Assembly: GCA_947568835.1 (NCBI GenBank)
Contig: OX387604.1
Location: 27,824,851 to 27,888,850 of the forward strand
From: Protonemura montana
Lineage: Eukaryota > Arthropoda > Insecta > Plecoptera > Nemouridae
DNA: 64,000 nucleotides
Reading direction: 5' to 3'
Numbering within the stretch: the first letter of the stretch is position 1; each line of letters begins with the position of its first letter. Made by a program: the position numbers and the translations under genes. Shown piece by piece: positions 1,812-9,080 of the stretch. The notes beneath the pieces are model-generated. The model did not search any database and was not told where the DNA came from. It was given only the letters and a program-made list of their open reading frames with translations.

Positions 1812-2045
1812 ATCACAAGATTTTATTTTTATTCGATGAGGTAATTAGATTTCGTGATTCAGAAAATGAGTAGTTTTATTGCTCAAAGGTTATTCCTAGG
1901 CATTGAAGTGTGTGATATTATGTCTGGAATAAGTAAATCCACAAGAGTGTTGTTTTTATTCGATGACCTAATTATGTAAGGTGATTCAGAAAATAAGTAG
2001 TTTTATGACTCGAAGGTGTTATGTACGCATTGAAATGCTTTATAT
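1812..2045. repeat. Diverged tandem duplication, unit ~125 bp
   Basis: Two adjacent blocks share TTTTTATTCGATGA, GTGATTCAGAAAAT, GAGTAGTTTTAT or its variant, and GCATTGAA in the same order and spacing (about 1812-1920 and 1940-2045). Identity looks moderate. No coding content is seen. Confidence 0.7.
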
Positions 2046-2890
2046 TCGTGTTATCAGCGCTACTACTTGACTTCCTGGCGCCGAGCGCGACTGGCACAAA
2101 AGTATTGAAAGAAATGAGATCATTTTAATTTTTCAAGTTTTCACCGTCTGCATTTCTAGGATTATAACTTATGTAGGATCGATTTATGCTCTGTCAAACT
2201 CTAATTAGCACCAGACTGCAACAGGTAACTATCGCTGTTGTGTCGGTAGAAACGTAGACCATAGCGACAGTCGTTCATGATTGAAATTACTTTAGCTGAC
2301 TTTTGACTGTGTTACATAAGGTTACCTCGTGTCGTAGGCAACATTCTTTAATACTGTGTTATGTTGGTACATGAAATGAGAGCGGGTAATGTTATTTACA
2401 ACAATGAAGTCAGTAGTTCCTCACCCATGTCTTCCATATGACTGGTCTCTGTGGAGATTTGTGCAAATTTGTCTAGGGTGAAAGTTCGATACAAGCCTAT
2501 AAAGCCTGAGCATAGGTGGTGACTCGCTACGCAATGTTTTCGTTGCCTGTCGACAATGCGGCAAATCCCTTAAAGCCTACGAGCATTATCTTAATCTGCT
2601 TTGAACTCGAAGGTTGCCCGCAAGTTTGAAAAGTGGTCCATTCTGCTTCAAATTTTGCTTTCACAAGTTTGCTGATTTCCTTATGAAGAGAAACGAAAAC
2701 AATTTGCAGGCTAGCAGTGACTTTATAAGATAATATGTTTTTGCTAATATTTTTTTACCCAAGATATTTGGAATGACCTGCTATGAACCTGTGACTAAAG
2801 ATGGACCACCCTATGGTTAATGGTAGGTAAACGTATGATAATTACTGGGTCAATATAAAAGTTTGATGGATTTTAAAAACTAAATACGAA
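2046..2890. other. Unassigned intergenic sequence
   Basis: I see no gene, RNA or clear repeat in this ~850-base stretch. All frames are short and carry no recognisable motif. Confidence 0.5.
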
Positions 2891-3760
2891 TTATTTATTT
2901 TATTTTATTTGTTTATTATTATTATTCAGCTTAGGCATTATCCGGTGGCTGAAGCAATATAATTGTACATTATAAGCAATATGAGTCAGGTAGAGAATAT
3001 GTTCTCCAATTGCGAAGCAGTAGGAATGGTCGTCATTTTCTTTGCAGACAGTTGGTTCCCGAGTCGACAAGTCCGGCCAAGAAACGAGTGCAGACCGATG
3101 TTGGTCTTGTAGCGCCGTAGATTTAGTTTGAGGCTATGGTAATGCCAGTTTATTTTAGTTGAGATTGACCATAGCCCATCTAGGCCTTGCCAGGCAGACT
3201 TCTTAATTAAAGCCTTGAAAAGGCATCAGAGTCCCACCCTACTTCTTTTTGTTGCTAGTGTGTCCCACCCAAGATCAGTTAGCAGTTTCTTCACGCTGAC
3301 ATAGGGTCGTCCGGTCTCATTTGACCACCATAGCAGGTTGTTTGTGACTTGCCTCGCTGCTCGTCGCTGGACTATCTCAAGGTTGTAGATCCTGCATGCA
3401 GAATAGGGATCCCACACCCCACAAAAGTATTCAAGCAATGGTCGGATGAGGCACTTGTAGGCGTGGGCTTTGGTGTGGCGAGTGCTACCACGGAGGTTTC
3501 TCATTACGAAGCTCAAATTTCTCTTCGTCTTACTGATTACTTTAGCTATGTGATTATTCCAATTTAGGCCTGATGATACAATCGATGATTTACATATGTA
3601 ATTTCAATTTGTAATTTCTGTAATATGTAATTTCTTTGTGAAACTGACTACTGTTGTTTTGCTTGCGTTAAGATTCATTCCATTGACATTGACCCAAGTG
3701 CTGATTTTATCAATGTCATCCTAGAGTTTCAGCTGATCTTCTATTCCATTTATGGTGCTG
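2891..3760 (-). pseudogene. LINE reverse transcriptase C-terminal half, degenerate (CR1/Jockey/L2-like)
   Basis: Read on the minus strand, 3740 to 3640 gives a stretch with WVNVNGMNLNASKTTVVSFT, the conserved region after the YADD box of LINE reverse transcriptases. From about 3560 the frame continues as LNWNNHIAKVISKTKRNL and AYKCLIRPLLEYFCGVWDP with VQRRAARQV, the thumb/connection region. After a stop near 3223-3225, the same kind of sequence resumes with NIGLHSFLGRTCRLGNQLSA, the usual C-terminal F..R...WN.LP motif. The 3' end (left) runs into a TTA/ATTTT-rich tail at about 2891-2930. The copy is 5'-truncated and carries at least one stop, so it is inactive. It lies about 320 bases left of the LTR element. 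Confidence 0.8.
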
Positions 3761-4080
3761 TATAACAACGTAATTGATTTCATGATTTACATAATCAACG
3801 AATCGTTGATTATGCAAACACTTTTTTGCAAGAACTACCACAATTTTTAAATAATATTATAATTGATTTTATGTTTTTTAGTATATATTTCCTAGGTTAA
3901 ACCAAAGCTAATATCTATTCTGATTCTGATCGAAAACAATCGCATGATCTCTATGATCTTTATTTTACCGTTATTAGAGTAAAATAATTGTCCCGTTGAC
4001 ACAAACGAAATTGTCACTCCTCGCAAAGTGGACATTCACAGTTGAATGTCACATTGAAATCACAGTTGCTTTTATTGTAT

Positions 4081-4390
4081 TGTTGCGAACTGCATGATTG
4101 CAGTTGGTGCTTAGGTGAGCTGTCGCGTGCGGGTAGGAATGTGCACGGTAAGCGTCAGCAATATCCAGATGGCCCAGCTGTATTCATGTGGCCAGGAAGT
4201 GCATCAGAGAGAAACCCGCTCCCGAGTTGAACGGTCCTGATTGTGCACTACGGATTTGGTGAGCACATTATTATATTCCTTTCTTTCCAAGTAGAGTCTT
4301 AATTATATCCCGGCAAGTTACGACCTCTCACATTGCCAAGCGAGATCTTTCGGCCTAGAATAAACAACAGTCTAAATTCTGGTCGTAACA
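4081..4390 (+). repeat. 5' LTR of the old LTR element
   Basis: This is a 310-bp direct repeat of 7053-7362 with TG...CA ends, preceded by GTAT, which recurs after the right LTR. Confidence 0.9.
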
Positions 4391-4480
4391 AATGGTAGAG
4401 GTGCCGGGAATTTTCAAAATTTATTGGGCAGTTTCAAAAGTTATTGAGAAAATTTCAAAATTTATTGGGCAGTTTCAAAA
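4391..4480 (+). other. Leader with primer-binding-site candidate and short internal repeats
   Basis: TGGTAGAGGTGCCGGG begins two bases after the LTR. It is followed by two to three copies of a TTCAAAATTTATTGGGCAG-like motif with ~40-base spacing (4415-4480). The leader thus holds a small tandem repeat before the gag-like region. Confidence 0.6.
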
Positions 4481-4484
4481 TTGA

Positions 4485-5102
4485 GTGGTTTGGTTCACGG
4501 CTGGTGGTTTCTCTCTCAATGTTTTAAGGCGGGTGCAGCATGTCTTAAAAGGGTTGGTACCCAGCTTGATCCAAAAAGTGGACATGTTGAGGAACGATAC
4601 CGTCGAGGGGCTACTGGAAAATGTTTGCAGGGTAGAGTCGTCGTTGGGAATGCTTCCGGGAAGGTTGGAAGACATAGCAAGCCCAGGGGAGGTTTTGCAG
4701 ACGGAAAGGAATCATGTTGAGAGTGATGAGCAGTCTGTGAGTCGTAAAGAGTTTAAGGAGGGCCTGGCGGACTTGAGGGCGGCACTTATCTATGCGATAC
4801 AGGCGCAAGATCCTGTGCAGCAGAATTTCAGGCCTAGGGATCGGTCCTGTAAGAGGGGTTCCGAGGAGGGGCTTCCTAATGGTTTCGATAGGGAGACGGG
4901 AAATCAGGCACAGGGCCAGCAGTCGAACGAGGCTTTGAGGCAGCAGGAGCTTAGCACTAGGGATGGGCGTGGTGACGTGCAATTGCGGGTTCAGCCAGAT
5001 CAGGGGCAGGACAGGGCTCGTCAGAGGTCAGTATGGGGCAGGCCAAGGTGCTATATTTGTAACCGGGTTGGGCACTTTGCATTGGCAAGTCCAGAGAGAT
5101 AG
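4485..5102 (+). pseudogene. Gag-like region with CCHC-type knuckle (fossil)
   Basis: This is a charged, Gln/Arg-rich reading frame of about 205 residues whose end resembles a retroviral zinc knuckle, CYICNRVGHFA. Its position right after the primer-binding-site candidate and before an aspartic protease-like region fits Gag nucleocapsid. As part of a broken LTR element it is treated as a fossil. I cannot assign a specific gypsy clade from it. Confidence 0.6.
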
Positions 5103-5417
5103 AGGGTAGGTAGATTTTTGGCAGAGAGTGGTAGAACAAATTCTAAAGTACTAGCTGTCGCAACAGTATCTGCAGACATTTCAGTGGCTCTAGAGACGAG
5201 GAGAGAGAGGAAAAGAAGACGGAGACGTGAGGGGAGACGAAAGCGAAGATGGAAAAAGGCTAAAGCGAAGACTCAGGAGGTGTTAAAGGGTGCAAGGAAG
5301 GGTGGTACAGACATGGCTGTTCGAGAAGACGAGTTGCGGGATCGCGAGAGATTTCTTAACGAGGTGCCGACAATCTGAAGGGAGCTGTTCGGGGGTGAAC
5401 AGACACAGGAAATCAAG

Positions 5418-6140
5418 GTGATTCGCACAATGGGGGCACTTCAGGTCGAGGCAAAGGTGGAAGGACAGGCTGTGAGGGCACTTTTGGATCCTGGAGCGGC
5501 GGTCAGCTACATTGATATTTCTTTGGTGGCTCATCTTGACATGGAGTCAGTGAGAGGTCTGGTGCTTAGTACGGCGAATAAGTCGAGGCTAAAGCTCGTG
5601 GGACGGGTGCTAGTGGAGCTTATTTTAGAGGGCGCTAAATTTCTGGTACCGATGATTGCGATTAAAGACCTTTCGGCGGCATGCGTTCTTGGAAACGACT
5701 TTTGCGAGAAACAAGAGGTCAACATAGCCTATGCTTCCAGGTCAATTTCAACTGCACATGATAGCGGAAGCGTTAGAATTCCATTCGTGTATAATGCTAA
5801 GTTGCAAAGTCAGGACATCGACCATGAGGAGAACGTTCTCTCCATTCGACAAGGGACAGAAGCGCTGCCTCGACAGATTTTTACAGACAAGGAAGTGATA
5901 GTGCTGAGTGGGCAGCAGCAGAAGGGGACTTTTAGTATCGGCATGGTTGAGCAATCTGAACACAATATTCTTGAACAAGATCCAAAGTTGTTTGTCAATG
6001 CAGAGTGGTTAGGGCCAACTGTTGTGGTCAATGAGCGATCACCGCAGGTGATTGCGATTCCAAATACAGCACCAAGTCCAGGCGTGATTCACAAGGAAGC
6101 GGTTCTAGGACATGTAAAACATGCTGTGAACGGGGTGTAG
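5418..6140 (+). pseudogene. Retroviral-type aspartic protease-like region (fossil)
   Basis: This frame of about 240 residues contains VRALLDPGAAVSYIDISLVA, which has the layout of the catalytic loop of retropepsins (usual form L.DTGA..S.I). LVPMIAIKDLSAACVLGNDF follows and matches the flap/ILG..F part of gypsy proteases. The remainder resembles the linker that in gypsy elements leads toward reverse transcriptase, but no polymerase sequence follows. It lies downstream of the gag-like region on the same strand. Confidence 0.65.
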
Positions 6141-6159
6141 GATGGACAAGGCCACGAAG

Positions 6160-6710
6160 GGGTGGACAAGGCGATAATGCAGCTACCGGAGATGGGACGT
6201 AAGATGGAGGGTGAGGGGAAGCAGAAGGACACGGACGCTATCATCACCGGACGTCACGAGGATCACGGGAGTTGCCAGCGATCGCACCGTCAAGAAGCAG
6301 CAAGAGCTGATCAATGTCGTCACGAAGGAAGCGGCGATTCCCACCAAGTTGTGCAGAAGCCTGATCGGTGCTGGCGGCAAGATTATCCACGCAGTCATGG
6401 AGGACTGGAGGAGAAGACTCCGGACTTAAAGAGCAATAAGGTGGCTGTTCGGGAGCTGGTCGAAAATGTGGAACGCGCTGTCTCTCCGCTACTGGAGCTG
6501 ACTTTGGAGAAACAGCGACACTCGTTCAAAGTCGAGGTGCGCGAAGCCATAGCGCGACGAGTTCTTCAACGGCAAGACTGGCGCGAACATAATAAAAACC
6601 GCGCGACACGATGGGCGCTCAAATCGGGATCCCAGGCAACAACAGCAGGGAGAAGGAGTCAATCACGGGCATTGGAACGAGGCATCAAGTTGGTCAAGAG
6701 TCGAACGTGA
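6160..6710 (+). pseudogene. Captured vigilin-like KH-domain sequence inside the LTR element
   Basis: Vigilin (HDLBP) is a conserved RNA-binding protein made of many tandem KH domains. Four stretches in this interval read like consecutive parts of vigilin KH repeats. DAIITGRHED matches the end of one KH unit. IPTKLCRSLIGAGGKIIHAV has the I..K..R.LIGAGG core of a KH GxxG loop. KVAVRELVENVERAV with LLELTLEKQ matches the third strand and C-terminal helix. NGKTGANI, then GAQIGIPGNN and KESITGIGT, give a further KH unit. The pieces lie in order but in more than one frame, so this is a decayed copy. It sits between the protease-like region and the 3' LTR and spans several KH units without an obvious intron, which fits capture from a spliced host RNA. 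The homology call is by eye. Other multi-KH proteins are possible but fit less well. Confidence 0.7.
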
Positions 6711-7052
6711 TCGAAGGAGACATGACAACGGGAGCTCGGCGAACTGGCTTCAGTCACTTATAACTTCCATAAGCACAGGCATTAGGAGAGACTTGGAGGG
6801 CCACGATAAGGGGATAGGGGGGGTAGGATTTTGGAGGGCAATTTGGATAATGACTTTTGGACTTATATGTTCTGTAGTTTCTATATTAGGATAAGTTAAC
6901 GACGTTGGGTCGGTATTTAAATTGTGTACAAACAAAGGAACGTGCATGGTGGGATGGGGACTTTGGGATGCATTTTCTGAGTAGCTTTTCCCCCCTTATT
7001 TTTGGATGTGACTGTTCCTCAAATCGGGGCGATTTCATCTACGGTGGAGGAG
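6711..7052 (+). other. 3' non-coding part of the LTR element
   Basis: No protein motif is seen. The sequence ends in GGTGGAGGAG directly before the right LTR, a candidate polypurine tract for plus-strand priming. Confidence 0.5.
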
Positions 7053-7362
7053 TGTTGCGAACTGAATGATCGCAGTTGGTGCTTAGGTGAGCTGTCGCGT
7101 GCAGGTAGGAATGTGCACGGTAAGCGTCAGCAATATCCAAATGGCCCAGCTGTATTCCTGTGGTCAGGAAGTGCATCAGAGAGAAACCAGCTCCCGAGTT
7201 GAACGGTCCTGATTGTGTACTACGGATTTGGTGAGGACATTATTATATTCCTTTCTTTCCAAGTAGAGTCAAAATTATATCCCGGCAAGTTACGACCTCT
7301 CACATTGCCAAGGGAGATCTTTCGGCCTAGCATAAGTAACAGTCTAAATTCTGGTCGTAACA
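7053..7362 (+). repeat. 3' LTR of the old LTR element
   Basis: This is the direct repeat of 4081-4390 with the same length and TG...CA ends, followed by the GTAT target duplication. Confidence 0.9.
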
Positions 7363-7493
7363 GTATGATAAGTTGTCTGGAAATATGTAATCAATCCAAT
7401 GGGCCGGACATTCATTCATGTCCGTTTTCAAATGTGACCCAAATAACATTGCAATTTTCGTGCGGTTTTTGAGAATGCTCTGTTTGCTTTTAC

Positions 7494-7919
7494 CGTTGAG
7501 TGTAGGTTAAAGGTAGAGAAACAACGTCAATGTTACAGTCTCTGCTTGAAAGATGACTACCTTACCGACAAAAATGCAGAGTACCGGAACGTCACGTTAA
7601 GTGGAGCCACTGTCGTATGAAATTTAATTTCGATATTTCTCGAAGTTAATCGCTGTACGTTACGTGTATATCAATCGTCGAGGTTAACATTGATGGAGAT
7701 TTTTTAAGCATGAAAAGTCTCAAAAGCGAGTTAACCTACGAGAAATATTAAAATTAAAATTCATACGACAGTGGCTCCACTTAAAGTGATGTTCCGGTAC
7801 TCTGGTCCGGTAATGTTTCCGGTCATGTTTCGGTAATGTGGTCATTTGGCGGCCATCTTTCACGCAGAGACTGTAACATTGACGTTGAAACTCTCTCTAC
7901 CTATAACCTACACTCAACG
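7494..7919. mobile_element. Foldback/MITE-like element with long inverted repeats
   Basis: The left arm (about 7494-7660) and right arm (about 7722-7919) are reverse complements over ~160-180 bases. They share CGTTGAGTGTAGGTTA, GTCAATGTTACAGTCTCTGC, AGAGTACCGGAAC and GTGGAGCCACTGTCGTATGA. CTTTTAC occurs immediately outside both ends (7487-7493 and 7920-7926), giving a 7-bp (possibly 8-bp) target duplication. No transposase is encoded in the short centre. The structure fits a non-autonomous DNA transposon. The superfamily is uncertain: a 7-9 bp duplication allows hAT or Mutator-like. Confidence 0.85.
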
Positions 7920-8177
7920 CTTTTACATACCGAAACCACGCAGATGGAGTACTAAACCATTATTGGTATATGACACTGTTGCAGTTCATCTTTTGTCCAT
8001 TTCAAGAAACACAGTTAAATAAAATTTAAAAAAAATCTAACCAACAGCCAGAAACAACCAAAGAAATAAGACATGTACTTAAAAAAATGGACAGGTTAAA
8101 AAATAAAGGAAATAAGGAAATGAGCACTGGAATAATTGAAAAAGGAATTAGTGAAAGCAGTTTAAGTGAAATAAAAT

Positions 8178-9080
8178 CTATTGCAGTTTTGCCATGTTAA
8201 GACACGGTAAAGATTTTATGTCAAGAAGATAAGAAATCCTCCAGAAATTGCCAGCATTTGCTCCAACATCTGAAGGCTCTTTCTGCAATTCATACAGAAA
8301 TTTGAGTAGACTTGCATAGTTATAAAGTGAAGACTTCAGTGACATCACCCGCACACACCAGCGAGTTGGACAGAACGCGTGAAGCTTTGCCAGAATACTC
8401 AATTTCATTTTAGTCGTCCTTCTGAAGACTTTCAAACCACGCCAATCTCTTTGGTGAATTCCTGACAATGCTAATCACATCTCGCACTAAACCTAGACAT
8501 TCCCGTGATTTCGCTTTTATTTTCATTGCGTCTTGCACTATCAAGTTAAGAGAGTGTGCTAAACAGTGCACTAATACCGCCCTAATCTCAATCTTGATTA
8601 ATTTTGCTTGTACACCATTTTTATGGCCACTGACATTGGCAGCACCATCATAGCATTGCCAATGACAATTGTTCACATCTAAATTAAAACGAAGCAGTGG
8701 AAAGAAAAGGTGAACAAGGTGAAAAGAGCGGATGACGTTGTAGAACACGTTTCATAAGACTTCAAGATTTTCATCCACTACATGAAAGCAGAGCGAAACT
8801 TGTTCTCGCACAATTAAATCTGAGGTCTCGTCAATTACAATGGAAAAATATCGAAATTTCTTTATTTTACCACAAATTCTCGTCGTCACAATTTGTGACA
8901 TGATGCTAATCAATTTGTTCACAATTTCGTGAGACAACTGTGCGAGCTAACCACTCCTTTCATTTAGATACGTCTTTTGCCCGCAATTGCAACAGACGTA
9001 ATAAGTTTGAATTTTCTTCGGTGAGTCCACGAAGAGCAGTTCCCCCAGATGTTAAATGCGTTAAAGCGCTTTGAGCGAGT
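8178..9080 (-). pseudogene. hAT transposase remnant (ZMYM1/DUF4371-like)
   Basis: On the minus strand the order is ALRGLTEENSNLLRLLQLRA (near 9040), then FSIVIDETSDLIVREQVSLC (near 8860), then QCYDGAANVSGHKNGVQAKL with LVHCLAHSLNLIVQDA (near 8600), then FCPTRWCVRVMSLKSSLYNY (near 8340). This is the order of the hAT catalytic region in ZMYM1/KIAA1586-like transposases, with an acidic residue in the IDET and YDGA boxes. An in-frame TGA at 8752-8754 and a frameshift at about 8410-8440 interrupt it. The C-terminal dimerisation part is missing left of 8178. It is therefore inactive. To its right, sequence continues to a hAT-like tip at 9504. Confidence 0.85.

Follow-up and report, generated by a model that had tools for sequence, protein, structure and literature searches.

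Structure of the element and its insert

The window, that is the whole stretch of 64,000 nucleotides of Protonemura montana DNA that was analysed, contains at positions 4081-7362 a 3.3-kb LTR element whose LTRs are 95% alike and which is bounded by a 4-bp target duplication (Table 1). The LTRs enclose a gag-like ORF, to which related DNA is present elsewhere in the genome, an aspartyl protease ORF with a linker, a vigilin-derived stretch and the end of an env-like gene. At the joint with the vigilin-derived stretch the protease ORF meets a stop codon, and another copy, C15, reads through there. No reverse transcriptase (RT) or integrase was found among the ORFs of the element that were tested. 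The element is a non-autonomous LTR retrotransposon, probably of an env-bearing, Ty3/Gypsy-like family. Just 3' of it, positions 7494-7919 hold three nested inverted-repeat pairs with arms of 26, 41 and 69 nt, resembling a MITE or a palindromic element.

Table 1. Features of the LTR element, with positions numbered from the first letter of the window
Feature	Positions	Strand	Remarks
Target-site duplication GTAT, left copy	4077..4080	.	right copy at 7363-7366
5' LTR	4081..4390	+	15 of 310 sites differ from the 3' LTR; K2P 0.050; TG..CA ends
Probable primer-binding-site region	4391..4412	+	directly 3' of the 5' LTR; placed by position only
Gag-like ORF, 205 aa	4485..5102	+	CCHC-like knuckle at its end; Pfam zf-CCHC 0.012, below cut-off
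Aspartyl protease ORF and linker	5379..6140	+	Pfam Asp_protease_2 1.3e-6; relatives in the genome
Open composite frame across the vigilin-derived stretch, 189 aa	6141..6710	+	no Pfam match
Vigilin piece 1: last part of host exon Y, first part of exon Z	6151..6230	+	intron absent; score 54 vs 36 for the best of 300 shuffles
Short patch like the env-like gene of related elements (QKDTDAII)	6222..6247	+	L060, C3, C16a
Vigilin piece 2: host exons B and C	6243..6683	+	no intron; indels disrupt the vigilin frame
Start of host vigilin exon D (NVIEGDMT)	6704..6738	+	score 34 vs 32 for the best of 300 shuffles; collinear; C-D intron absent
End of env-like gene and 3' untranslated region	6807..7052	+	common to vigilin-free relatives
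3' LTR	7053..7362	+	paired with the 5' LTR; TG..CA ends
Target-site duplication GTAT, right copy	7363..7366	.	left copy at 4077-4080

Relation of the insert to the host vigilin gene

An earlier note on this DNA had recognised motifs of vigilin, in the right order, between the protease region and the 3' LTR, and these are indeed present in that order, far above chance. The note had placed the segment at 6160-6710; the vigilin sequence begins a little before this, at 6151, and runs to about 6738. A search of the segment gave significant KH matches, positions 6178-6426 matching human vigilin 2ctj with E=1.2e-4 and Pfam KH_1 with 5e-4, the latter at 20.2 bits, just below the cut-off of 21.5. ITGRHED, one of the motifs named, straddles a joint, where the env-like patch meets vigilin in frame at ATCAC.

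The genome searched comprised 258 Mb on 34 contigs; only the best candidates were scored, and the copy counts given here are lower bounds. A protein search returned 19 matches, seven from a single gene on C14 and 12 from five element loci, and a DNA search with 6150-6760 returned seven, representing five element loci (C3 twice) and the host gene. A second host vigilin gene was considered as donor and rejected, none being found in the protein search of the genome. The C14 gene is a vigilin: among named database entries, insect vigilins match it best, at up to 73% identity, and the relatives listed for it also include crustaceans and one fish-labelled record. Its exons Y, Z, A, B, C, D and E were read in L012, with introns that by eye begin and end in GT/AG. 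With the host vigilin the captured peptides reached a score of 457, and the 120 proteins listed among 1571 matches gave no score above 346, so that none of the 120 exceeded the host gene. By this measure, the insert is nearer to the C14 vigilin than to the 120 relatives listed.

When positions 6243-6683 were aligned with the spliced vigilin exons A-D of the host, a score of 386 was obtained, compared with 41 for the best of 30 shuffles; the alignment contains 329 identities, 110 mismatches and 24 gap positions. Exons Y and Z emerged as the source of the 5' part of the insert from a scan of the host gene region, and in the C15 copy this first piece extends over 82 bp ungapped with a score of 76 (39 for the best of 300 shuffles). 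Two other sources of 6120-6225 were tried and rejected, namely the protease-RT linker of the relatives and host exon A; shuffle tests were unconvincing for both, and with exon A global scores were high and local ones were not. The exon D piece scored 34 against 28 in C15; there, as in the window, it is weak alone, yet collinear, and the C|D joint deduced from these alignments is likewise weak when taken alone. For 6739-6806, the genome search revealed no source beyond the five copies.

Intron removal at B|C is spanned in all five copies, and at Y|Z in both copies that reach this boundary. Because the insert matches the spliced exons of the host with the introns gone, these comparisons support its derivation from vigilin mRNA after splicing, and the capture from spliced RNA into an LTR element that had been proposed is upheld: one host vigilin gene was found, on C14 and with introns, and the insert lacks them at both boundaries. 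The accompanying claim that several KH units run on without an intron is correct as to the introns; the units are not continuous, since the vigilin pieces in the window occupy three frames. That the KH resemblance arose by chance or from an assembly artefact is next to impossible in view of five loci on three contigs, strong scores and collinear exons, and nothing turned up in its favour. A role of the insert at the RNA level, such as giving rise to small RNAs that match vigilin, is also very unlikely. Retrocopies in Plutella that yield gene-targeting silencing RNAs offer a parallel (PMC9674220), but here the main window match to spliced vigilin is 71% identical, and no exact match to it in the five copies exceeds 15 bases.

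Other copies, vigilin-free relatives and the joints

At least five loci, distributed over three contigs, hold the vigilin insert. Its 3' side is the same in all five, but three types of partner adjoin it 5' (protease linker, env-like gene and foreign gag). A genome search with the LTR yielded 139 candidates, of which 40 matches, including the two of the window itself, were scored. C16b (C16:23821586-23824828) is a second LTR-to-LTR element, flanked by the duplication ATAT, whose LTRs show 298 identical and 12 mismatched positions. The long element C3 (27008122-27019081) carries a 5' LTR, DNA resembling gag and protease, RNase H, integrase, the start of an env-like gene and vigilin; its 3' LTR is cut, the first 58 bp remaining. 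Ty3/Gypsy elements have protease, RT, RNase H and integrase in this order. The protease-like part of C3, whose match was below cut-off, is followed by a presumed RT stretch that had no Pfam match, and then by RNase H and integrase, which share one ORF (RNase H 2e-33, H2C2 1e-11 and, below cut-off, rve 1e-6). C15 (8203821-8205149) ends in a 3' LTR, and no 5' LTR was found in the stretch read; C16a (21212055-21212770) contains vigilin and env-like DNA, had no LTR match and loses homology at window position 6931. Two of the five are therefore not established as complete elements. Long arrays with a 31-bp step were observed between the gag-like and protease-like parts of C3 and C5 relatives (L051, about 2573-4988; L053, about 2025-8715), with none in the window element, and L011 carries at 2492-2913 a 69-bp unit in six perfect copies at the integrase C-terminus, open in frame.

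A genome search with 6775-7052 gave 16 matches at 15 loci, made up of the five copies and ten loci that were called vigilin-free from the DNA and protein searches of the genome with vigilin; five of these ten, L030-L033 and L060, were read. The vigilin-free relatives have LTRs similar to those of the window element. In L030-L033, the end of the integrase adjoins the 3' region directly. These four loci represent a vigilin-free element on four contigs (C30, C10, C8 and C5:20786 kb); as their match values are identical, they may be a duplicated block or unplaced duplicates. L060, to whose positions 626-51 the window sequence 6807-7367 is 88% alike, carries between integrase and 3' LTR, at the site where C3 has an env-like start followed by vigilin, an ORF of 276 aa that has hydrophobic stretches as well as a basic cleavage-like site, and which by its motifs we take to resemble F-type env. 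Of the relatives of this ORF in the genome, one in L063 is open over at least 627 aa and matches it at 35%. The env-like ORFs that were tested had no Pfam match and no relative in a protein database search, and since these searches leave the L060 ORF unnamed, env is kept as a likely label that rests on anatomy.

In C3 and C16a, the env-like gene runs to ATCATCAC and is then followed by vigilin; at the joint, the two sources have the five bases ATCAC in common and their frames agree. In C15, the end of the protease linker and vigilin are joined in one frame, and this joint recurs in the window, where a stop codon precedes it and the env-like patch is added. C16b contains a 1165-bp gag block that is 96-98% like five loci and abuts both its own gag and its vigilin part; the block looks, from these similarities, as if it came from another element family, and at its joints the matches between partners are very short. 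Compared with L060, C3 has lost the env-like DNA between the joints, and C16a has the 5' joint of C3. Because this DNA is missing, the comparison identifies the event as a replacement of env-like DNA by vigilin rather than a plain insertion. On the evidence of the copies, the vigilin segment is part of the mobile unit, and its presence inside other family members disposes of the later unrelated insertion that the earlier note had held against its own reading.

The joints also bear on the idea that a LINE produced a processed vigilin pseudogene, which by chance ended up in an LTR element and was then copied by it. The introns are gone, as for any processed pseudogene, and outside the element lies an ORF of 125 aa (3226-3603, minus strand) that is LINE reverse transcriptase-like and, by its look, presumably the end of a non-LTR reverse transcriptase. 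However, both ends of the vigilin segment are inside exons, no poly(A) was seen by eye after the vigilin part, and an insertion would have split the env-like DNA that is missing between the joints of C3. Such a course of events is improbable.

Very probably, an LTR element transduced part of the host vigilin mRNA, and the segment then spread among element copies. Spliced vigilin mRNA would have been packaged together with element RNA, and the reverse transcriptase would have changed from one template to the other at short matches; a protease-linker/vigilin fusion like that of C15 was probably the first product. As minus-strand synthesis starts at the 3' end, later switches would have kept the block of vigilin plus 3' end and exchanged the upstream partner for the env-like gene or a foreign gag; this is the order of events that we infer among the recombinants. 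The constant side from vigilin to the 3' end in all five copies fits template switches during minus-strand synthesis. Lacking RT and integrase, the window element and copies like it would need enzymes from full-length relatives.

Known captures and the coding capacity of the segment

Acutely transforming retroviruses have gag-onc fusions in a defective genome, with a piece of host mRNA beside a gag/protease part, and need a helper. The window element likewise combines gag and protease parts with a fragment of host mRNA but, unlike these viruses, shows no sign of retained host-gene function. For such retroviruses, PMC4299795 describes captures in which coding parts of the virus are lost. The same paper presents CrocERV29 (KIT-ligand) and CrocERV31 (nectin3) as animal LTR elements with captured host mRNA; in CrocERV31 the host sequence came in at the cost of env, just as C3 has lost most of its env-like gene. 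In the crocodilian elements, however, the host ORFs are reported to be intact and under purifying selection, whereas none of the five copies retains an unbroken vigilin frame. During LTR-mediated retroposition in metazoans (Tan et al. 2016, as described in PMC5408686), an LTR element reverse-transcribes cellular mRNA, frequently just a part of it, by switching between templates at short stretches of similarity. The present case is alike in that a partial cellular mRNA was copied into an LTR element, and differs in that the segment stayed in a mobile family, at five loci with three kinds of upstream partner. Maize Bs1 is also an LTR element with transduced cellular gene fragments, but it carries pieces of three genes (PMC13317346), compared with two pieces of one gene in what is probably an env-bearing insect family. 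The mechanism is known from a rice and sorghum survey too. Among the matches listed by a literature search on vigilin with retrotransposons and on host gene capture, plant and crocodilian cases were present and no vigilin case. The mechanism is already known, as LTR-mediated retroposition, from Bs1 and the CrocERVs, and the set of recombinants is unusually clear. It provides a clear example from an animal of a host mRNA fragment that, once inside an LTR family, was used again in several recombinants while the 3' side stayed constant, and the mosaic set may allow the direction of template switching to be read from genomic copies.

The suggestion that the segment, if once expressed with Gag, could have added RNA binding is not borne out. 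Relative to the host, deletions of 2 and 4 bases, both frame-breaking, are common to all five copies, indicating that the vigilin frame was lost before the copies spread; four of them (the window, C15, C16a and C16b) also lack 16 bases at a site where C3 is different. In the composite frame of the window, roughly 70 residues, divided among three blocks, keep the vigilin register, and the GXXG loops fall outside this long open frame. Full KH function was therefore rejected, a continuous frame with GXXG loops being absent. With the frame broken before the five copies spread, the segment is most likely a passenger that adds no KH-type RNA binding now.

Selection of the captured KH repeats as an RNA-binding extension of Gag or Env is quite unlikely for the same reasons, although the reading frame continues across the joints with the protease linker in C15, within vigilin, and with env in C16a, and open frames of 189 (window), 267 (C15) and 770 aa (C16b) run through the segment. 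A vigilin-derived composite ORF of 172 aa on a 1318-bp contig from another data set (P0121) matches that of C15 at 58%. In simulated decay, 12% of frames of C16b length were still open after 2% change, and of window-length frames 50% were open after 2.5% and 27% after 5%; because many frames stay open, openness is weak evidence. Differences at first, second and third codon positions numbered 49/28/54 in the core (10 non-independent pairs summed), and this low second position is the sole result leaning towards constraint. The 5' part showed no such dip (16/15/10 from three non-independent pairs), and the third-position excess in the 3' part (16/26/58) occurs in a frame read there by the window only and not by the other copies. 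Over the five copies, compared as non-independent pairs, the codon-position counts give no clear sign of constraint.

It is unlikely, if slightly less so, that the composite frame has been recoded as a C-terminal extension of the Gag or protease polyprotein, aiding packaging or trans-mobilisation. Such an aid would explain the retention of the segment through several recombinations, and a frame in use would show a host RNA-binding gene turned into a new retroelement part.
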